Source: Haloarcula sp. CBA1129
GTDB lineage: Archaea > Halobacteriota > Halobacteria > Halobacteriales > Haloarculaceae
NCBI RefSeq assembly: GCF_008729015.1
Contig: NZ_RKSM01000001.1
Coordinates: forward strand, 2,604,001-2,668,000
Reading direction: 5' to 3'
Length of the DNA: 64,000 nt
Shown: positions 44,372-54,361 of the stretch, piece by piece
How the letters are laid out: every line of letters begins with the position of its first letter
Numbering within the stretch: position 1 is the stretch's first letter
The notes under the pieces: generated by a model
Databases searched by the model: none
What the model was told of the DNA's origin: nothing
The model's input: only the letters and a program-made list of their open reading frames with translations
Made by a program: the position numbers and the translations under genes

Positions 44372-45298
44372 TTACTCAGCCGCGTAGGCTTCGATGCCGG
44401 TTTCGAGAATCTCGCGGTAGCGTGTCACGTCGATGTCGACAGCGACGCGGTTGTTCGGGTCGTTGCCCGTCGTGCCGTGCTCATCACAGATGACGGCCCC
44501 GTGGCAAGGACCGCCGGTCGTGTCTACATCGAGGTAGTACTCCTCGAAGGTGAGTACCGACTCGTCAATGATGTCGGCGACGACAGCGGCGTCGTGGATA
44601 GCCGGTGCGTCGGCCGTCGGATAGGTCCCGGAGTCGGGCCGGTAGTCGAGCCACTCGGCGATTGTCCCGCGGACACCGCCGGCCGTGCGGAACGCCTCGA
44701 TGAACTCGGGGGAGACGGTAGCACGGTTGGTCACGTCTAGACCGACCATCCGCGTGTTCGCGTCCTGCAGAACACGACTGGCCGCTGCAGGGTCGTTGTG
44801 GAAGTTGGCTTCGGCCATCGGCGTCACGTTCCCGGTCGTCATCGCCGCCCCGCCCATGAGATATATGTCGTCGACGAGGTCGGGGAGGCGCGGTTCTTTC
44901 GCCAGCGCAATCGCCAGATTCGGGAGCGGGCCGACGGCCGCAATCGTCAGTTCCTCCCCGTACTCGTGGGCGGCTTCGACGATTGCGTCGGCTCCATGGA
45001 TCTTCCGTGTGTCGCCGTCGACGTCGGGGATGTCCCCGTGGAGTCCGTTCTCGCCGTGAATCCACTCAGCGGTCGTGAGGTCGTCGACGAGCGGACGGCC
45101 ACACCCACGAGCTACCGGAACGTCGTAGCCACCGAGCCCCAGTATCGCGTGGGTGTTTCGCGTCGTGTTCTCGATAGTCGTGTTCCCGCAGACAGTCGAG
45201 AGACCGACAACATCGATTGCATCGTGACCGAGCGCCATCGCCAGCATGACCGCGTCGTCGCAGCCAGGGTCCGTATCGAAGAACACTTTGCGTGACAT
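44372..45298 (-). CDS. Nucleoside hydrolase, IunH type
   Basis: A 308-residue Ca-dependent hydrolase that cleaves ribonucleosides to base and ribose. The metal-binding start is FFDTDPGCDDAVMLAMAL (D8, D10, D14, D15). VARGCGRPLV, the ENGLHGDIPDV segment and a late HDAAVVADI carry the other ligands. It converges on xacD with a 42-nt gap. TATA-like TTTTAAGACC (minus strand, 45321-45330) is centred about 27 bp upstream of the ATG at 45298. The location beside pentose genes suggests sugar salvage, but ribose does not enter the Xac route. Confidence 0.9.
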   Translation of the reverse strand: MSRKVFFDTDPGCDDAVMLAMALGHDAIDVVGLSTVCGNTTIENTTRNTHAILGLGGYDVPVARGCGRPLVDDLTTAEWIHGENGLHGDIPDVDGDTRKIHGADAIVEAAHEYGEELTIAAVGPLPNLAIALAKEPRLPDLVDDIYLMGGAAMTTGNVTPMAEANFHNDPAAASRVLQDANTRMVGLDVTNRATVSPEFIEAFRTAGGVRGTIAEWLDYRPDSGTYPTADAPAIHDAAVVADIIDESVLTFEEYYLDVDTTGGPCHGAVICDEHGTTGNDPNNRVAVDIDVTRYREILETGIEAYAAE

Positions 45299-45662
45299 AC
45301 CTCCGAAGTTCCGCCCATCGGGTCTTAAAAGCTGGTACGTGCTGATCGTGACACACGCATCGCTGTAGACAGACAGGCAGTGTTCTATGGGCAGTCTGTC
45401 GGGCCGTCGTCGCCACCACAATCGGTGTGTCGGAATGTGTGGCCGACAGATCAGGTGTGTCCGTCAAAGCCGTCTTATAGTGGCTAGGCAGTACAGTATC
45501 AAACGACAGCTCCGGATATGTTCACCTCTGGAGATGGGGCAGAGTTGCACCTCCCAAAGACAATGCAGAGTTAGTGGTTTGTTACAGAAAACAGTCACTA
45601 TCTGAGAATAGTCTGTCTATGGTAAATTTTAACTAGTCGGTGCTTATACCGTACAGGAAGTA
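45299..45662. other. Intergenic region between two divergent promoters, 364 bp
   Basis: Divergent starts lie at both ends. The right end holds a TATA-like GCTTATACC (about 45642-45650) close before the ATG at 45663 and an AT-rich stretch GGTAAATTTTAAC (45620-45632) farther upstream. No ORF or repeat stands out. Confidence 0.5.
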
Positions 45663-48600
45663 ATGAATAAAAATTGCATATGGGCAGTCGCGTTCAGCAT
45701 ACTGCTCGTTTTCTCGGTTGTCAGCACCGGCTTCCTCGGAAGTGCCGCTGCTGCACCGAGCAAGCAAACCGAGTTGACAACGGCGAATAGTCAGACAGCA
45801 ACACAGATGGCCTCGGCTGGTGGGGCGACCTGTCAGCTCGACCAGAGCTGTCCAGTTCCTGATGATTCAGTCGATCTCAACAACAGCGGTGCCGGCGTCG
45901 ACGTGCTGATCGACGGGAGCCATCAGGGCTCGACGTTCACCAAGTTCGCAAACCGCCTCAGCGAACGCGGCTACGACGTCGACACGAAACGGTCGACGAC
46001 CGGCGGGCTGACCTCGTGGAACAGTTCGGCCGCGAGCGGGCTGTCGGACTACGACGTGGTCATCATCCCCGTCCCCCAGACAGCCTATAGCGAGGCCGAG
46101 CAGGCAGCAATCGACGAGTACGTCAGAAACGGCGGTAGCCTGTTCGTCGTCGGGGACTGGACCTCGCCGCTGCAGGGCCACGCCGGCAAGCTCAACGACA
46201 TCACCGATCCGTACGGACTCCACTTCAACGGCGAGAGCGACAAGTGGCTCCGAAATGTTCAGGACCCGACCAACAAGACCGTCGAGGACTACGAGTGGCG
46301 GGTCATCCTGCACAACACGGGCCGGCATCCGATAATGAACAACGTCGACACCGTGGAGTACGATGGCGTCAGTCTCAACGTCACCGACACGGACAACGGG
46401 ACGCAGGCCCCGCTGCTGTACGGTGACAGCGATACCTACGAGTACACCTACTCCACGACAGAGAAAGAGTACCCCCGTGGCGAGCGCATCGTCGGCGCGG
46501 CCGCGACGTGGGACATCGGTGACAACGGCCGTGTCGTCGCCTTCGGCAGCCAGAAGTCGGTCACCACGTATCTCACCGACGAGTGGCAGGCCGAACACCA
46601 GCAAACCGATACGCGACCGTTCCTCTTCCGAACGGTGAAGTGGCTGGCCTCGTCGGGTCACGTCGAGCGACCTGACAAGCCGGTCGCCGTCACCGGCGAG
46701 CGAATCAAGGGCGGCGAGACGCCGGCAAACGAGACGATTGTCCTGAAAAACAGCGAAGTCGCCGCCGCCATCGGTACTGAGAGCAATGGACCGTTCGGTA
46801 CGCTCCCGGGCGGAATCTACGACGCCAACGCGTACGGGCTGACAACCGACCAAATCGGCGTCGCCGAGTTCGCGTTCAACAACTTCGGGACGTGGCCGGT
46901 CTATGAGTCCTTCGAGCGCCAGAACGCCACCGGGCCGAACGGCGCGGCGGTCGTCACCGCGACCGGCCACGTCAGTACGAACCCGAACGTCTCCGTCACG
47001 ACGACGTACACGCTACCGGCCAACTCCAGCCACATCTGGATGAACACCACGATGGAGAACGGCGGCGACCAGCGCCTCCCGATCAACGACTCCGAACGGC
47101 TTCAGAGCGGGGCCGCACTGAGTTCAGAAGGCCAATCCACTTGGCTCCCCGGTTCGGGGAGAGTCGAGGAGACGCGCTCGCCGCCAGTGAGCGCCGACAC
47201 ACTCGACCAGCCATGGGCCGCACTCACCGGTGACCGTGTGAGCTACGGCGTCTGGGGCGGGAACGGCTCCTTTACCTCGTACACTGGTTCCACGACATGG
47301 ATCGACCCGTGGCTCGAACACCGACTTGACCCCGGCGAAACGCGCTCAGCGGAGTTCGCCCTCTTCGTCGGCGAAGACGGCTCAAGTAGCGCGACCAGCG
47401 AGTACTACAACCAGCAGCAGGGAACCGAGACGGGAACTGTGACCGGGACCATCGAAAGTACGGACAACGAGTCTGTCTCACAGGCAACAGTCACCGCCTC
47501 GAAGGGTGACCGCGCGTTCACCTACACCGTCGGGTCGGAGACCGGAACGTACGACCTCGAACTCCCCGCCGGCGAGTACACGCTGACGGCCGACGCCAGC
47601 GGATTTGCGGCATCAGAGCCACAGTCCGTCACCGTCAGCAGCGGTGAAACGGCAACCGCCGACTTCGACTCGTTGGAGGGGCCAGCCCCCGTCAACGTCA
47701 CCGCAACGATAGATGACGAGGGCGAGGTCAGTCCCGCCGACGCCCGGATTACGGTACTCGACGACGGCACCGCAGTCCAGACCGTCTACACCCAGACGAC
47801 GCCGGCCGGCACGGCTTCGTTCCAGCTCCCGCCGGGGAACTACACGCTGGTGTTCAACCACGGAACCGGGTACATCGCCGAACCGGTCGAGAAGAACGTC
47901 TCGGTGACGCCGGGTGAATCGGTCAGCGTCAACGCGACGTTCACCGAGGAACTCGACCCCAGCGAGCGCAACTGGGTCGGCATCGACCCCCACGCCCACA
48001 GCAGCGTCAGCTTCGACGGCAAGACGCCCATCGACAACTTCGTCGCCATCCAGAAATCGGCGGGTGTCGACGCAGTGTTCATCTCCGATCATAACGCCAT
48101 CGGCGGCTGGGGATCGATGGAGTCACAGGCCGAGGAGCGCGATATCATGTTCATCCGGAGTGAGGAGATCACCACCGGCGACCTCGGACACTTCAACCCC
48201 TACCCGATGCACGGCGAGGAGATGGTCGACTCCGACGGGACCCTCGTGGAGTTCATCGAGGAGTCCCGCAGTAGACACAACGCAACGGTGTTCCAGATCA
48301 ACCATCCGGGCGACCGCTTCGTCAGCCTCGACAGCGCGCCCGGCCAGCACGAGAAGTACCTCCCGATGGTCGACGCCATCGAGGCGTACAACGGCCCGTA
48401 CGGCGAGTCCGACGCTGCCAGCGTGCAGGGGCTGTTCACTCTCTGGAACGAAGGCTACGAGATCACGGCGACCGGTGTCAGCGACGATCACTGTTCACAG
48501 TGCTTCCCGGCGAAATACGGCAGCGCCCGCACCCGGGCATACGTCGAGGGGACCGTCACGCCCGAGAAGTGGGCCCAGTCGGTGAAAGACGGGCACACGT

Positions 48601-49115
48601 ACGCGACGTACGGTCCGGCCGTCGAGTTCACTGTCGACGACCGGATGCCCGGTGAGACCGTGAACACGACCGCCGGGTCGTCCGTGGAGGCGTCCGCAAC
48701 GGTTCGGAACCTCGATGAACTCGCGTACGCTGAGGTCATCCGGAACGGCACGACCGTCTCGAACGTCACGCTCGACGGCACGAACGACACCATGAGTACT
48801 GACGTGGACATCGACGGGAACGCTTGGGTCGCCTTCCGCGTCGTCGACGAGGACGGCGACCGAGCGCTGACCAGCCCGGTCTGGATTTCGACCGACCAGC
48901 AAGCCGAATCCGGAACTGACGGCAACGGCGAATCCGGCGGTGCCACGGCGGCCGGTACACCAGACACAGAGGGCGAATCAGCGGGAACGGCGGCAGCTGA
49001 CACTGCAGCCACAGAGTCGGAGACGGCCGCCGCGTCCGGGCCCGGGTTCACCGCCGTCGTGACACTGCTCGCGCTCGTCGGCGCAGCGCTGCTCGCAACG
49101 CGACGGGGGACCTGA
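45663..49115 (+). CDS. Secreted surface protein with PHP phosphoesterase-like domain and PGF-CTERM anchor
   Basis: A 1150-residue exported protein. The Sec signal peptide is residues 1-31 (AFSILLVFSVVSTGFLGSAAAA). Residues about 75-335 resemble a GATase-like/DUF4350 domain. Carboxypeptidase-regulatory-like beta domains lie near 600-750, with many N-x-S/T sequons throughout. From about 770 to 1010 is a PHP-type metal phosphoesterase region of the CehA/McbA family: GIDPHAHSSVSFD, ISDHNAIGGWG, INHPGDRF and GVSDDHCSQC. The C-terminus is a PGF-CTERM tail (SGPGFTAVVTLLALVGAALL then ATRRG), so archaeosortase A should trim it and attach lipid. The substrate is unknown. A His-rich lipoprotein gene follows after 3 nt. 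Confidence 0.9.
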   Translation: MNKNCIWAVAFSILLVFSVVSTGFLGSAAAAPSKQTELTTANSQTATQMASAGGATCQLDQSCPVPDDSVDLNNSGAGVDVLIDGSHQGSTFTKFANRLSERGYDVDTKRSTTGGLTSWNSSAASGLSDYDVVIIPVPQTAYSEAEQAAIDEYVRNGGSLFVVGDWTSPLQGHAGKLNDITDPYGLHFNGESDKWLRNVQDPTNKTVEDYEWRVILHNTGRHPIMNNVDTVEYDGVSLNVTDTDNGTQAPLLYGDSDTYEYTYSTTEKEYPRGERIVGAAATWDIGDNGRVVAFGSQKSVTTYLTDEWQAEHQQTDTRPFLFRTVKWLASSGHVERPDKPVAVTGERIKGGETPANETIVLKNSEVAAAIGTESNGPFGTLPGGIYDANAYGLTTDQIGVAEFAFNNFGTWPVYESFERQNATGPNGAAVVTATGHVSTNPNVSVTTTYTLPANSSHIWMNTTMENGGDQRLPINDSERLQSGAALSSEGQSTWLPGSGRVEETRSPPVSADTLDQPWAALTGDRVSYGVWGGNGSFTSYTGSTTWIDPWLEHRLDPGETRSAEFALFVGEDGSSSATSEYYNQQQGTETGTVTGTIESTDNESVSQATVTASKGDRAFTYTVGSETGTYDLELPAGEYTLTADASGFAASEPQSVTVSSGETATADFDSLEGPAPVNVTATIDDEGEVSPADARITVLDDGTAVQTVYTQTTPAGTASFQLPPGNYTLVFNHGTGYIAEPVEKNVSVTPGESVSVNATFTEELDPSERNWVGIDPHAHSSVSFDGKTPIDNFVAIQKSAGVDAVFISDHNAIGGWGSMESQAEERDIMFIRSEEITTGDLGHFNPYPMHGEEMVDSDGTLVEFIEESRSRHNATVFQINHPGDRFVSLDSAPGQHEKYLPMVDAIEAYNGPYGESDAASVQGLFTLWNEGYEITATGVSDDHCSQCFPAKYGSARTRAYVEGTVTPEKWAQSVKDGHTYATYGPAVEFTVDDRMPGETVNTTAGSSVEASATVRNLDELAYAEVIRNGTTVSNVTLDGTNDTMSTDVDIDGNAWVAFRVVDEDGDRALTSPVWISTDQQAESGTDGNGESGGATAAGTPDTEGESAGTAAADTAATESETAAASGPGFTAVVTLLALVGAALLATRRGT

Positions 49116-49118
49116 GCC

Positions 49119-49853
49119 GTGCCAGACACCAGCCAGCGACGGAGTCGGCGTGGGTTCCTCGGAACCCTCGCGCTGGCTGCGGTGGCCAGCGCGGGCTGTA
49201 GCAGCCTCGGCGGCACCCAGAACAGCCAGTCCGGCGACACCGGGGCCGGCGGCTCGACGGCAACGCCCGAAGCGAGTGAAATGCCAGCGGCAGACGATGG
49301 GGCACACCACGACGAGTCACACGGCCACACGCACGCCGACGGCGGTCACGACCACGGCGAGGGACACAGCCACGACAGCGAACACGCAGATAGCGACGAC
49401 GAAGCCGACGGTGCTACCGACACCGAGCTGGCCGCGTTCGAATCCAATCTGCGGAAGTGGTTCGTCGACATCGACTCACTCGCTGTCGAAGACAGCCGCA
49501 TCAGGCTGACCTACGTCACGAAGAGCACGCGCAGCCACGAACTCGCGGCCGGCATCGAGACGGTTGTCGTTTCGTTCATCCAAGCGTACACGGACGACTG
49601 GGAGGTCGATGGCCTCGATGCGGAGGTAATCGAACCGTCCGGCGAGGTGATGGGCTACTGGCGGACTGAATCGCGGTGGATCGAACCGGTCGTCGAGGGG
49701 CACGAGACGCGGACAGCGCTTCTTGAACGGACGCTCGACACGTATCACGGCCGCCTCACTCGCGAGCACGACCACGGCGAGCGCGACACCGACCACAGCG
49801 AGAACGAGAGCAGTCACCAGCACCACAACGGGACCGAGCACGCAGACCACTGA
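49119..49853 (+). CDS. Histidine-rich Tat lipoprotein
   Basis: A 244-residue exported lipoprotein. A twin-arginine signal (RRSRRGFLGTLALAAV) ends in the lipobox ASAGC, with C27 the predicted lipid site. Two clusters rich in His with Asp/Glu flank a folded middle: about ten His in residues 62-90 and nine in 209-244, typical of Zn, Mn, Ni or Cu buffering or delivery loops. The middle (about 100-210) is not recognised. It starts with GTG at 49119, just 3 nt after the PHP gene stop, so the two are one operon. Metal supply to the PHP site is an attractive but unproven idea. Confidence 0.8.
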   Translation: MPDTSQRRSRRGFLGTLALAAVASAGCSSLGGTQNSQSGDTGAGGSTATPEASEMPAADDGAHHDESHGHTHADGGHDHGEGHSHDSEHADSDDEADGATDTELAAFESNLRKWFVDIDSLAVEDSRIRLTYVTKSTRSHELAAGIETVVVSFIQAYTDDWEVDGLDAEVIEPSGEVMGYWRTESRWIEPVVEGHETRTALLERTLDTYHGRLTREHDHGERDTDHSENESSHQHHNGTEHADH

Positions 49854-49938: not shown

Positions 49939-50133
49939 TCAGACCTTCAGTAACGACAGCAGGCTGACGCCGACATCGAAGTACTCGATGAGGCGATAGC
50001 CGACGAGGATGCCGAGGATACCCATCACACCGGCGAGGTTCGGCGGGGCCGGAATGGGGACATCCAGCAGGCCGAACACGACGCCGGTGGCGACGCCAGT
50101 CATCGTCGCGACAATAACGAGTGAGAGATTCAT
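49939..50133 (-). CDS. XapX-domain membrane protein
   Basis: A 64-residue protein with two membrane helices joined by the XapX motif (GVVFGLLDVPIPAPPNLAGVMGILGILVGYR). XapX proteins occur in bacteria and haloarchaea; function unknown. It converges on the lipoprotein gene with an 85-nt gap and has a long AT-rich upstream region. Confidence 0.85.
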   Translation of the reverse strand: MNLSLVIVATMTGVATGVVFGLLDVPIPAPPNLAGVMGILGILVGYRLIEYFDVGVSLLSLLKV

Positions 50134-50611
50134 CGGTCGGTCACCACTGTCCCGAATCGAGGGGCCACGCAGGTGCGTGTCGGGACGCCCCGAGAGCGGC
50201 CCGTGGGTGTGTTTGAAGTGTGTGTCATTGGTGGCGTAGAGAACGGGCTCAAGCGGTAAGTATGCTCCTCATCGGTCGAGCAGTGGTGAAAAGTACCACA
50301 CACCAATCCCGGACAATTCTGTACGACCGGAAGGTACGTCCAAATATCGTAGACGGGCATCTTTTAGTTCCTCGTCAATATCCTATCACTACAGATAGAG
50401 AGAATATAACCATATAAGCAATGAGTAAAAGTATAAATCGACTGAGTGAATACAGACTGTATTTTATGTAGATAGGTGTCCAATACGTGAAGATATTAGA
50501 GACAGAGTAGGCACAAATTGAATTACAACAGTGGACTGAACACTGGCTACCACAGCCAGAAGAGCCTCCGGGAGGCTGGCGTTTATAAGCAAGCCACGGG
50601 AAGTGATGACG
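50134..50611. other. AT-rich intergenic region with dehydrogenase promoter, 478 bp
   Basis: No credible ORF. The middle (50390-50480) is clearly AT-rich. Close to the dehydrogenase gene lie a perfect hairpin CTGGCT-ACCAC-AGCCAG (50543-50559), a near-perfect palindrome (50563-50577) and TATA-like TTTATAAG (50582-50589). No tRNA or insertion sequence. Confidence 0.5.
50563..50577. promoter_or_regulatory. 15-bp palindrome next to the TATA of the dehydrogenase gene
   Basis: AGCCTCC-G-GGAGGCT has 7-bp perfect arms around one base. It ends 4 bp before the TATA-like TTTATAAG (50582-50589), at the TFB-recognition side, and about 42 bp before the predicted start at 50612. It is a candidate operator. 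The adjacent hairpin at 50543-50559 could be part of a second site. Confidence 0.5.
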
Positions 50612-51652
50612 ATGCAAGCCGTTCAGTTCGATAGTCACGGCGACCGTGATGTACTTGAGTATAGCGAGTTTCCAGACCCCGAACCCGGCCGCGACGAGGT
50701 GGTCATCGACGTGAAGGCGGCCGCGCTGAACCACCTCGACATCTGGACCCGGCGCGGGCTCCCCGGCGTCGACCTCGATATGCCACACATCCCGGGCAGT
50801 GACGCCGCGGGTGTCGTCGACGAGGTCGGCGACGGCGTCTCGCGGTTCGAACCGGGCGACCGCGTCGCCGTCCTCGCCGGCAAGAGCGGCGGCGGCGACG
50901 AGTTCTCACGGAAGGGCGACCCGACACTCGCCCCGGACTTCCACATCATCGGCGAACACGTCCGAGGCGTCCACAGCGAGTACGCCGCCGTCCCGGCCGA
51001 GAACCTCACACCGGTCCCGGAGGGCGTCGACTGGGAGACGGCCGCCGCGTCGCCACTAGTGTTCCAGACCGCTTGGCGGATGCTTCGCGACCGTGGCGAC
51101 CTGAAGGCCGGCGAGTCAGTGCTGGTACTTGGCGCATCGGGCGGCGTCGGCCACGCGGCCGTGCAGGTCGCCGACCACGCCGGCGCTGAGGTGTTCGCCA
51201 CCGCCAGTAGTCAGGAGAAACTCGACTACGCCGAGGAACTGGGCGCAGACCACACCATCAACTACGAGGAGACGGATTTCGCGAGCGAGATCCGGGACCT
51301 GACCGACGGCCGCGGCGTCGACATGGTCGTCGACCACATCGGCGCACAGACTTGGCAGGACTCGCTCAAGAGCCTCGTCAAGGGCGGTCGCGTGGTCACC
51401 TGCGGCGCGACCACCGGCGGCAACCCGGAGACGGACATCAACCGCATCTTCTGGAACCAGCTACAGGTCATCGGCTCGACGATGGCGACGCCCGGCCAAG
51501 CCGACGAAGTACTTGACCTAGTCTGGCAAGGAGAGATGGAACCGCGAGTCCGCGAGACGCTGCCCATGAGCGAGATCGCCCGGGCACACGAGATCATCGA
51601 GGACCGCGAGGGCTTCGGGAAGGTCGTCGTCGTTCCCGACAGCGAGCTGTAA
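50612..51652 (+). CDS. Medium-chain dehydrogenase/reductase lacking the Cys zinc lobe
   Basis: A 346-residue MDR-family NAD(P)-dependent oxidoreductase, zinc-type ADH or quinone-reductase-like. The cofactor motif is LVLGASGGVGHAAVQVADHAG (about residues 170-190), and GSDAAGVVDEVGDGVSRFEPGDRV is the usual catalytic-domain stretch. The segment that normally carries four structural-zinc Cys (between DRV and FHIIGEH) contains none, and the usual GHE is GSD. So it may be a zinc-free member. TATA-like TTTATAAG at 50582-50589 is centred about 27 bp before the ATG at 50612. An ATG at 50606 and GTG at 50603 are alternatives. Confidence 0.85.
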   Translation: MQAVQFDSHGDRDVLEYSEFPDPEPGRDEVVIDVKAAALNHLDIWTRRGLPGVDLDMPHIPGSDAAGVVDEVGDGVSRFEPGDRVAVLAGKSGGGDEFSRKGDPTLAPDFHIIGEHVRGVHSEYAAVPAENLTPVPEGVDWETAAASPLVFQTAWRMLRDRGDLKAGESVLVLGASGGVGHAAVQVADHAGAEVFATASSQEKLDYAEELGADHTINYEETDFASEIRDLTDGRGVDMVVDHIGAQTWQDSLKSLVKGGRVVTCGATTGGNPETDINRIFWNQLQVIGSTMATPGQADEVLDLVWQGEMEPRVRETLPMSEIARAHEIIEDREGFGKVVVVPDSEL

Positions 51653-51674
51653 GACCGGTCCCGAATTTTCGCCG

Positions 51675-52886
51675 TCACTCCGTTCCGAAGCGGGCCGTCG
51701 CAAACTCCTCGAAGGGAGCCGAGTACTGCATCAACATTGTTCCGAGAATACTCATCACGAGCACATAGGCGACCGTAAAGGAGTAGACGGCGTTGGCTAG
51801 CTCGGACGACAGCGACGTGCCTGCGCCGGTCAGTGCGACAGCGGCAATAATCAGCGAGAACTCGCCGCGAGTGACCATGCCAAGGCCGACGCGCATCGAC
51901 CGGCGCGGGTCGAGGTCGTAGGCACGGCCACCCAGATAGCCCGAGACGATTTTCGTCGGCGTCGTCACGACGACAGCGGCAACGACCAGCCCCGCGACAC
52001 CGGCGAACAATCGGGGATCGGTCTCCACGCCGATCCAGAAGAAGAACACCGCCGCAAACGTGTCACGGACGGGCTCCAACAGGTTCTCCAGTTTGTGCGT
52101 GTGGGTCGTCGAGGCGAAGGCCATCCCGACGAAAAAGGCGGCGACGGCCTCGCTGACGCCGATGGCGAGCGCGACGCCGGAGATGAGGACCGTGATGCCG
52201 ACGGCCCGTATCACCGTGAACTCGTTCGAGTTCGTCTGTAAGGCCCGCTCGAACCACGGCGTCCCGTAGCGGGCAAGGAGCAAGAGCGCGACGATGAACG
52301 ATAGCGCGATGCCGATGGAGGTCGCGGCAGCCCCGACGTCGGACCCACCAGCGACGAGCGCGGCGGCTATCGTGAGATACACAGCGATGACCAGATCCTC
52401 GAACACGAGCGTCCCGAGCATCGGGTCTGCCTCGTCGTTGGCGATCCAGCCGAGGTCGATGAGCGACTTCGTGATGATGGCCGACGAGGAGATGTAGACG
52501 ATCCCGGCGACCAGAAAGGCCGCAAGCGGGTCTCGAAACAGCGCGAACCCGAGCAGGAGTCCGGCACCGAAGTTGATGCCGAGGTCAGTGATTCCCGCTC
52601 TGGTGATGCGCTCCCAACTCTCCAGCAGCCGGTCGAGATTGAACTCCAGTCCGAGGAAAAACAGCAGGAAGACGATACCGAGCTCAGCACCGAGTTCGAC
52701 GAACTCGGTCGACTCGACGACCGGGAGGCCGTAGCCGGCGACGGAGAACTGCCCCGCAACTGACGGCGACAGTACCATCCCGATGATGATGTAGAACGGG
52801 ATCACCGACTTGTTCAGCCACACGGCCACAAGGGTGGCGAACGCGACGGCGGCGAACAACACGCCGATACCGAGTAAGTCAGCCAC
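51675..52886 (-). CDS. khtU: K+/H+ antiporter, CPA2/Kef family (KhtU-like)
   Basis: A 403-residue membrane protein with about 12 helices. It carries the CPA2 core: LFFLGLEFNLDRL, a GIVYISSSAIITKSLIDLGW segment with charged residues, VFEDLVIAVYL, and FFFWIGVETDP. Its partner gene encodes a KhtT-like regulatory protein 38 nt upstream, hence KhtU-type K+ (or NH4+) efflux. The GTG at 52886 (MADLLGIG...) is the likely start. A longer frame begins with TTG at 52916, but its extra residues are basic and unlike relatives. Confidence 0.82.
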   Translation of the reverse strand: MADLLGIGVLFAAVAFATLVAVWLNKSVIPFYIIIGMVLSPSVAGQFSVAGYGLPVVESTEFVELGAELGIVFLLFFLGLEFNLDRLLESWERITRAGITDLGINFGAGLLLGFALFRDPLAAFLVAGIVYISSSAIITKSLIDLGWIANDEADPMLGTLVFEDLVIAVYLTIAAALVAGGSDVGAAATSIGIALSFIVALLLLARYGTPWFERALQTNSNEFTVIRAVGITVLISGVALAIGVSEAVAAFFVGMAFASTTHTHKLENLLEPVRDTFAAVFFFWIGVETDPRLFAGVAGLVVAAVVVTTPTKIVSGYLGGRAYDLDPRRSMRVGLGMVTRGEFSLIIAAVALTGAGTSLSSELANAVYSFTVAYVLVMSILGTMLMQYSAPFEEFATARFGTE

Positions 52887-52924
52887 GACGGTGGCCCTCC
52901 GACGAGTCGGGTGCAAGCATCTCT

Positions 52925-53413
52925 CTACAGCTCTCCGGCCAGAAGCTTCTCGAACCGCTCGCAGTTGTCGCGCTCACCGATGACGACGACGGTGTCGCCG
53001 GCCTCGATTTCGGCGTCGGACGCAGGGGCGGCGATGACGTCGTCGCCGCGCTGTATCGCGACGACGGTGATGCCGGTGCGCTGGCCGACATCAGCGCCAG
53101 CCAGCGTCTCGCCAACCAGCGGCGAGCCCGCCTCGACGGCGTACCACTCGAGCAGCGTGCCCTCCGACAGCATCGTCTCGACGTGATTGGATTCGACCGG
53201 CTGGAAGTACGCGCCTTCGAGTATCGTGCCGACTATCCGTGCCAGCCGGTCAGAGAGTTCGAGCAGTTTCTCCGAGTCGGCGTCTTCGTTCTCTTTCAGG
53301 TACAGTTCGCGAGTCCCCGTGTTGTGGGTCACGACGACCAGTTGCTGGCCATCGCCGATGTCCACCTCGTGTTTTTTTCCCACACCGGGCAGGTCGCTCT
53401 CGGTCACGTCCAT
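52925..53413 (-). CDS. khtT: TrkA-C domain regulator of the antiporter (KhtT-like)
   Basis: A 162-residue cytosolic protein. The N-terminal half follows KhtT (MDVTESDLPGVGKKHEVDIG, then VVVTHNTGTRELYL). The C-terminal half is a TrkA-C domain (LVGETLAGADVGQRTGITVVAIQRGDDVIAAP) that binds a nucleotide such as c-di-AMP in characterised KhtT proteins. It probably gates the antiporter encoded just downstream. The start is the ATG at 53413; upstream codons in the frame lack homology. Confidence 0.82.
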   Translation of the reverse strand: MDVTESDLPGVGKKHEVDIGDGQQLVVVTHNTGTRELYLKENEDADSEKLLELSDRLARIVGTILEGAYFQPVESNHVETMLSEGTLLEWYAVEAGSPLVGETLAGADVGQRTGITVVAIQRGDDVIAAPASDAEIEAGDTVVVIGERDNCERFEKLLAGEL

Positions 53414-53546
53414 AGCCCGAGATTGCGGTCCAGCATGTATAAGACCCGGTGCCAGATGCTCTGCGCAGACAGTCGTCGATAGCCGATACGACGGGGGACC
53501 CAAAGGTATTAGTGGGTTCCTGCCAACGTTCAGGCAAGCCAACTTT

Positions 53547-53574
53547 CGCTAAAACAAGCTGATTTGTTTTAGCG
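53547..53574. promoter_or_regulatory. 11-bp inverted repeat at the cbiX promoter
   Basis: CGCTAAAACAA-GCTGAT-TTGTTTTAGCG has perfect 11-bp arms and a 6-nt spacer. It ends 13 nt before the cbiX ATG. TAAAAC in the left arm is a possible TATA element about 26 bp before a start near 53579. The size and symmetry suit a metal or cobalamin regulator site, or an mRNA hairpin at the ribosome entry. CCAA/TTGG adds four pairs outside a bulge. Confidence 0.55.
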
Positions 53575-53587
53575 TTGGGAGCTACCA

Positions 53588-54361
53588 ATGCCACACGACA
53601 CACTCCTGCTCATCGGTCGGGACACGTCACGCGCTACGCCCTACGAGACACACGCTCGTCGTCTGCGCGAGCGCGGGGTAGCCGCTGACGTCACGGTGCT
53701 GACCTACGACCACGAACCTCGCCGGGAGTTACGCGACGAACTGGTAGCCATCGATGCCGACCGCGTGTTCGCGCTGCCGATGACCGTCGCTCACGACCAC
53801 ACGACAGTCACGGACGTCCCGGCAGCACTCGACGAAATCGACGCCGAGACACACTACTGTGAACCAGTCGGGCGAAGCCCGCTGCTGACCGAAGCGCTCC
53901 GGGACCGCAGCAGTGGCGCGGTCCCGGAGGCCGCTGACTCCTCCGTCGCGCTCGTCGCCTTCGGCTCCAGCGGCAAGCCGTATCAACGTCAGGTAACGGA
54001 GTATCACGCCGAGCGCCTGCGCGAGCGCTCGGCCTTCGGCGAGGTCGAGCCCTGCTATCTGCTGCAAAACCCCGCTGTCGAATGTGTCCGGTACAATCTC
54101 ACTCACGACCACGCCGTCGCCGTGCCGCTCTTTCTCGCGCCAACCGACGCGACCGAGACGCAGATTCCCGCCAAGCTCGACCTCGACAGGGGCGGACTCG
54201 CCTACACTGACACGCTGGGCGACCACCCGCTCGTCACCGAGGCCGTCGCAACCGCTGTCGAGACGGCACGGACGATGGCAGAGACACGTACACCACAGAC
54301 GTTCGAGGCGACGCTGGCCGCGACAAACCGGCCGCTGGCGACCGACGGCGAGGGCGATTAG
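53588..54361 (+). CDS. cbiX: CbiX-like sirohydrochlorin cobaltochelatase
   Basis: A 257-residue protein of the CbiX/SirB chelatase family. It would insert Co2+ into sirohydrochlorin at the start of the early-insertion (anaerobic) cobalamin route. Two similar half-units are visible, each with a strand ending in a small loop (TLLLIGRDTS, LVAFGSSGKP). The metal ligands are less clear than in short CbiX proteins; likely ones are His in MTVAHDHTTV and HDHAVAVPLF. It is first of the rightward genes in the cobalamin island. Confidence 0.75.
   Translation: MPHDTLLLIGRDTSRATPYETHARRLRERGVAADVTVLTYDHEPRRELRDELVAIDADRVFALPMTVAHDHTTVTDVPAALDEIDAETHYCEPVGRSPLLTEALRDRSSGAVPEAADSSVALVAFGSSGKPYQRQVTEYHAERLRERSAFGEVEPCYLLQNPAVECVRYNLTHDHAVAVPLFLAPTDATETQIPAKLDLDRGGLAYTDTLGDHPLVTEAVATAVETARTMAETRTPQTFEATLAATNRPLATDGEGD

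Follow-up and report, generated by a model that had tools for sequence, protein, structure and literature searches.

What might a haloarchaeon gain from a large exported protein with a metallophosphoesterase domain encoded directly beside a histidine-rich lipoprotein, and on what substrate would such a pair act? The question is raised by a stretch of 64,000 nucleotides from Haloarcula sp. CBA1129 (assembly GCF_008729015.1, 4.05 Mb; contig NZ_RKSM01000001.1, positions 2,604,001 to 2,668,000), hereafter the window, in which the two genes occupy positions 45663-49853. The two genes form a real conserved unit, and at the level of the sequence its architecture, pairing and metal ligands are settled. 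Since it lies beside nucleoside-salvage genes, the pair probably helps the cell to feed on extracellular nucleotides or nucleic acids. Our reading, tentative and somewhat short of an even chance, is that the two genes form a unit by which phosphorylated nucleosides are scavenged on the cell surface, the lipoprotein being a partner that buffers metal. The pair comprises the following features:

45663-49115, forward strand: surface PHP-type metallophosphoesterase of 1150 amino acids (NF038032, E = 1.2e-64; PGF-CTERM model TIGR04126 above cut-off)
45903-46643, forward strand: GATase-like/GIFT-like N-terminal domain, residues 81-327 (PF09822 ABC_transp_aux, E = 6.8e-11, above cut-off)
47436-47666, forward strand: CarboxypepD_reg beta-sandwich domain, residues 592-668 (PF13620, E = 2.5e-15)
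47970-48887, forward strand: CehA/McbA-type PHP catalytic domain, residues 770-1075 (NF038032, 314 of 315 profile positions)
49029-49106, forward strand: PGF-CTERM sorting signal, residues 1123-1148 (31.6 bits with TIGR04126, whose cut-off is 24.5)
49119-49853, forward strand: histidine-rich twin-arginine translocation (Tat) lipoprotein of 244 amino acids, lipobox Cys27 (arginine pair, RR, and lipobox unchanged in all 16 orthologues; always adjoins the PHP gene)
49305-49385, forward strand: His cluster 1 of the lipoprotein, residues 63-89, with 10 histidines (conserved within the genus, absent in the distant orthologue)
49425-49751, forward strand: alpha-beta core domain of the lipoprotein, residues 103-211 (relatives in 160 of 392 haloarchaeal genomes; AlphaFold pLDDT 94, pTM 0.87)
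49767-49850, forward strand: C-terminal His tail of the lipoprotein, residues 217-244, with 8 histidines (H219, H226, H233 and H244 kept in every one of the 16 orthologues)

Both genes were found at full length in the same 15 of the 32 genomes of the genus, always adjacent and in constant order, and the remaining 17 carry neither the PHP gene nor the lipoprotein. A sixteenth pair is present in genome G068, from another genus of the family, with about 65% identity in the PHP protein and 38% in the lipoprotein. Co-occurrence of the two genes, which an earlier note on this DNA had put forward as a check of their coupling, is borne out by the 15 genus carriers and by G068, with never one gene alone. 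The Tat lipoprotein described there as lying 3 nt downstream was likewise recovered (49119-49853, with RR and lipobox Cys27), its start codon falling 3 nt past the stop of the large open reading frame (ORF). The aligned coding ends lie 6-18 nt apart in the 15 genus carriers, and because of this short spacing joint transcription of the pair is likely. The 15 genus orthologues of the PHP protein share 82-100% identity. Within the genus the ratio of nonsynonymous to synonymous substitution rates (dN/dS) ranges from 0.09 to 0.19 in the PHP gene and from 0.23 to 0.36 in its lipoprotein neighbour; both genes are under purifying selection. A contig scan with two peptide patterns, by which bacterial relatives were barely sampled, returned Haloarcula only, and the PLSDB plasmids yielded two partial matches, the best in Halomarina (36%). 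A search of an open-access library, itself incomplete, turned up no published account of a pair like this one, and the pairing of a PHP enzyme with a His-rich lipoprotein appears to be undescribed.

The large protein was correctly recognized in the earlier note as an 1150-residue PGF-CTERM protein with PHP-type motifs (TIGR04126, 31.6 bits; NF038032, 219 bits), and it is predicted to be a Sec-exported surface protein anchored through PGF-CTERM, of the archaeosortase type. Sec export is proposed because an RR motif is absent; the haloarchaeal signal peptide model TIGR04207 scored 24.0 bits, marginally under its cut-off of 24.6. In the Pfam search, OST48_N (PF03345) also matched the N-terminal domain (residues 81-327), slightly below cut-off (E = 1.6e-8). 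The AlphaFold model of the large protein was not used, its pLDDT being 40.7, and for this reason the folds of the N-terminal 600 residues are assigned from Pfam alone. Single-query phmmer searches of the PDB with the large protein and with the lipoprotein gave no match.

Membership of the catalytic domain is claimed for the CehA/McbA family NF038032 only (218.8 bits against a curated cut-off of 80 in the profile search), and PHP is used here as the name of a fold superfamily, because Pfam PHP (PF02811) reached 21.2 bits on the whole protein, below its gathering cut-off of 26.4. All nine metal ligands are present (H777xH779, D809-H810, E835, H843, H881 and D941xH943), in the places of the nine conserved PHP ligands described for DnaE1 (PMC5636811), so that the loss of ligands by which, according to the earlier note, its reading would fail is not seen. 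The nine are retained in the genus orthologues and in a relative of 34% identity; among relatives that include cytosolic ones at 23-26% identity, eight of the nine are invariant and D809 is 90% conserved. A profile of the set of relatives matched solved structures of PHP phosphoesterases, which include 3e0f, 3e38 and 2yb1 as well as a 5'-3' exoribonuclease (7ug9), with HxH and DH/EH in register in the alignments to 3e0f and 3e38, and GH, NHP and SDxH also in 3e38. The model for 3',5'-nucleoside bisphosphate phosphatase (NF041577) was rejected, as the large protein scores 21.5 bits against a cut-off of 400 and is not a member.

The catalytic domain itself is ordinary, a member being present in 288 of 293 haloarchaeal genomes, mostly as a short protein. 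Its surface form is uncommon: the long protein is matched in 18 of the 146 genomes from the family and in 17 of the 392 sampled across the order. A secreted CehA/McbA protein with a dockerin-like C-terminus was also observed in genome G062 (L086:5269-7311), and no His-rich lipoprotein adjoins it.

The lipoprotein has the motif RRSRRGFLG, and R10, R11 and C27 are invariant in 16 of 16 orthologues. Its score with the Tat model TIGR01409 is slightly under the cut-off (16.2 against 16.7), and the predicted Tat export therefore leans mainly on the invariant RR pair and lipobox Cys. About 19 histidines in two clusters had been counted earlier; the two clusters stand, and the total is corrected to 21, with ten at residues 63-89, eight at residues 217-244 and three in the core. 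Histidine makes up 8.6% of the protein compared with 2.0% for the window genes (binomial P ~4e-8), the highest value among 46 long ORFs. The conserved folded core, absent from the discussion in the earlier note, is modelled as an alpha-beta-beta repeat (AlphaFold, pLDDT 94); its family, mainly small proteins of about 120 amino acids, has members in 160 of 392 haloarchaeal genomes. Searched against the PDB, the core found no match at E<=0.001. Structural comparison with VIA-align gave weak matches, the best to CamS-type sex-pheromone lipoproteins (Z 8.2) followed by C-terminal domains of cation diffusion facilitator (CDF) transporters (Z ~7), values within the range of common arrangements.

Other members of the core family were seen in varied settings. 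In another genus of the family, two genomes each encode two lipoproteins in tandem that share this core domain and lack His tails (L116 and L117, 667-1914). A 121-amino-acid uncharacterised member without a Pfam match is encoded at L030:1468-1833, with equivalents in L028 and L023, and in several genomes a gene resembling aldehyde ferredoxin oxidoreductase (annotated by eye) adjoins it.

Does the His-rich part of the lipoprotein serve the enzyme? Among the core-family members compared, those paired with a PHP gene hold 14-22 histidines against 2-6 in the others, and His-rich ends occur only in the paired ones. A conserved tail restricted to PHP-paired members fits a function connected with the enzyme; the simplest guess would be that it binds metal. 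The same alignments can be read differently: the lipoprotein would donate no metal but, in a structural or substrate-handling capacity, dock the enzyme at the membrane via its core, and the tail would be a passive low-complexity acidic/His linker. The core is far better conserved than the His clusters (invariant columns, 16 orthologues), it represents a widespread family in which His tails are missing from the other members sampled, and its best matches in fold, weak as they are (Z ~8), are CamS-type lipoprotein domains. Cluster 1, moreover, is present in every lipoprotein of the genus and lost in the G068 orthologue. A passive linker would sit less easily with the four tail histidines that stay invariant in 16 orthologues while the spacer residues between them change, and we consider docking of this kind doubtful, though a serious contender. 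Far less probable is a lipoprotein that protects against, or senses, excess Cu or Zn and has nothing to do with the enzyme; exported His-rich proteins commonly bind metals, but the pairing with the PHP gene is strict (16 of 16) and no metal transporter or regulator lies near the pair.

The substrate may be sought in the genes around the pair, the first of which is divergent from it:

44372-45298, reverse strand: inosine-uridine preferring nucleoside hydrolase, IunH (PF01156, E = 9.6e-82)

An orthologue of this hydrolase, at 83-94% identity, is present at this position in 15 of 15 genus carriers, and the only nucleoside hydrolases in the 17 non-carrier genomes of the genus, where there are any, are remote paralogues (at best 47%). 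In G068 the two genes stand between that of a cytidine deaminase (cdd) and that of the last permease of a Bmp/PnrA-type ATP-binding cassette (ABC) transporter with a PF02608 binding protein, directly downstream of the transporter and on its strand. Next in the locus come uridine phosphorylase-like and methylthioadenosine (MTA) phosphorylase-like genes. Four genomes of the same genus as G068 have this locus, with R15P isomerase and deoC beyond, without the pair, and the empty site measures 153 bp in G067 as opposed to 4.3 kb in G068. Because these four relatives lack it, the pair appears to have entered, or been lost from, the G068 nucleoside locus as one unit. Linkage to nucleoside genes is seen in two locus types, one with IunH (all 15 genus carriers) and one with Bmp-ABC, cdd and phosphorylase genes (G068).

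Phosphodiesters, extracellular DNA or phospholipid had been suggested as substrates in the earlier note. The gene context in two lineages narrows this list in favour of nucleotides or nucleic acids, and a nucleotide substrate, resting on the two locus types, can be proposed with moderate confidence. A surface PHP phosphoesterase of other specificity (lipid phosphodiesters, teichoic-like or glycan phosphates, or general phosphate scavenging) could have acquired its nucleoside neighbours by accident. The substrates of PHP and CehA enzymes are diverse, and related secreted CehA proteins occur near sugar ABC transporters (L189-L191) or carry a dockerin-like tail (G062), no nucleoside genes being visible there. 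Regions of the GATase/OST48-like, CarboxypepD_reg and PEGA-like kinds, such as are found in the N-terminal part of the large protein, are frequently carbohydrate-associated. Accidental neighbourhood is, on the other hand, hard to reconcile with a pair that lies among nucleoside genes in two separate locus types, with one visible insertion, and we hold such other specificity to be unlikely, if not negligibly so. The enzyme could also be an exonuclease acting on nucleic-acid ends or oligonucleotides downstream of a secreted thermonuclease of Hvo_1477 type, instead of a mononucleotide phosphatase. Haloferax takes phosphorus from extracellular DNA via such a surface thermonuclease, homologues of which occur in Haloarcula marismortui (PMC3929857), and PHP exonucleases are known (PMC5636811; 7ug9); as no sequence feature here distinguishes an exonuclease from a phosphatase, we regard this narrower assignment as rather improbable.

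Under the scavenging reading, the large protein would be exported unfolded by Sec and anchored on the surface through PGF-CTERM, and its PHP site, with two or three divalent metal ions, would cleave phosphoesters of extracellular nucleotides or oligonucleotides. The freed nucleosides and phosphate would then be imported, and the nucleosides split inside the cell by the nucleoside hydrolase in Haloarcula or by phosphorylases in the second genus. As a presumed Sec substrate, the enzyme would have to acquire its metals outside the cell. The Tat lipoprotein, exported folded if its RR pair is used, would reside in the same membrane as the enzyme, where its C-terminal His tail could concentrate, buffer or hand over metal (Zn or Mn); metal supply by the lipoprotein is plausible. 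The sequence itself shows the architecture, the intact ligands, the strict pairing, the purifying selection and the nucleoside context in two lineages, and we infer the substrate, the direction of metal flow, the contact between the two proteins and their joint transcription. That the lipoprotein actually loads Zn or Mn into the Sec-exported phosphoesterase outside the cell, and that a dedicated unit moved into nucleoside-salvage loci and enabled the use of extracellular nucleotides, is a bolder proposition and an unlikely one.

Several observations weigh against the scavenging reading. CehA and McbA are known as carbaryl hydrolases, so that phosphoester chemistry is unproven by the fold alone, and the close relatives of the enzyme are known from sequence alone. 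In G068 the PHP frame (L085:5509-8904) is interrupted in frame by two TGA codons, where the window protein has Cys57 and Trp327, and the gene is probably decaying; the adjoining lipoprotein frame is open. His cluster 1 is not conserved in the same genome, and the weak fold matches of the lipoprotein core provide neither a metal site nor a function. A Bmp-type ABC transporter related to that of G068 does exist in Haloarcula, elsewhere in the chromosome and unlinked to the pair. The Haloarcula carriers are maybe one clade, in which case 15 of 15 counts as few events and the nucleoside context comes down to two loci. Finally, Sphingobium sp. TCM1 secretes a Sec-type PHP phosphodiesterase, Sb-PDE, that holds about 2 Zn in each subunit (PMC5460133). 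This enzyme supports extracellular PHP chemistry, yet it has no known partner and so suggests that a metal donor is not absolutely required.

Two further features flank the PHP gene and the lipoprotein gene, respectively:

45299-45662, no strand: intergenic region shared by the nucleoside hydrolase and the pair (alignment of 15 carriers)
49939-50133, reverse strand: XapX-family small protein, convergent with the pair (TIGR03510, E = 3e-19)

The most conserved block of the intergenic region in the 15 aligned carriers is an almost invariant TATA-like element, AAATTTTAACTA, at 45624-45635, 28 nt before the ATG of the PHP gene. Inverted arms, TCTGTCGGGCC and GGCCGACAGA, about 40 bp apart, were noticed between the nucleoside hydrolase and PHP genes (window ~45390-45450); recognized by eye in most carriers and absent from the output of the repeat finder, they are a possible operator. 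No Pho or Zur site was identified, no search with a validated haloarchaeal model having been made, and the scan for sigma-70 promoters and terminators is uninformative in archaea. Among the genus genomes the XapX gene is present in the 15 carriers only, where it follows the pair, and it was considered as further evidence of a nucleoside function. It was rejected as such, the family being common (207 of 342 haloarchaea) and mostly located elsewhere, away from nucleoside genes: a BLAST scan for such genes in the flanks (about 1.5 kb) of the top 30 XapX loci gave no hit, 11 inspected loci had other neighbours, and the Haloarcula XapX is merely slightly closer to that of the G068 genus than to others. 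Farther downstream (50603-54361), quinone oxidoreductase-like, KefB-like, TrkA-like and CbiX-like genes were observed in an order unchanged in the other genus carriers inspected.

Haloarchaeal habitats hold much extracellular DNA and little phosphate. One surface nuclease is known to be needed for growth on DNA (PMC3929857), and the extracellular step from nucleotide to nucleoside has not been assigned. The surface phosphoesterase pair and its linked nucleoside hydrolase offer testable genes for this gap. Should the lipoprotein indeed supply metal, the pair would, in addition, show in simple form how an exported enzyme can receive its metal outside the archaeal cell.

Compared with known systems, the catalytic domain resembles CehA/McbA over its full length and in all metal ligands. 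Those enzymes are known as carbaryl hydrolases, whereas here the domain is part of an 1150-residue surface protein that also has GATase-like and beta-sandwich domains, carries a PGF-CTERM and is accompanied by a lipoprotein. Zinc-binding lipoproteins and substrate-binding proteins of the His-rich ZnuA/AdcA type share with the lipoprotein their export, their lipid-anchored or periplasmic location and a His-rich stretch, but none of them is matched by the lipoprotein core, and the pair has no metal ABC transporter linked to it. By its published description, Sb-PDE is alike in Sec export, PHP superfamily and nine conserved metal ligands; it is a single-domain protein of 441 amino acids that degrades haloalkyl phosphate diesters, for which no anchor or lipoprotein partner has been reported (PMC5460133). 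RNase AM/YciV (7ug9) and the NF041577 phosphatase, both found by profile search, have the same PHP fold and metal motifs and, unlike the large protein, are cytosolic. The G068 locus is of the same kind as the haloarchaeal nucleoside degradation loci of the non-carboxylating pentose bisphosphate pathway (PMC9700705), with phosphorylases and deoC, and R15P isomerase in relatives; in those loci nucleosides are handled inside the cell and no surface phosphoesterase is described, and Haloarcula is listed among the haloarchaea whose route of nucleoside degradation is unclear (PMC9700705). The surface nuclease Hvo_1477, by means of which Haloferax grows when its phosphorus comes from extracellular DNA (PMC3929857), is likewise a haloarchaeal surface enzyme that makes nucleic acid available as a nutrient; it belongs to an unrelated nuclease family and would act upstream of the large protein.

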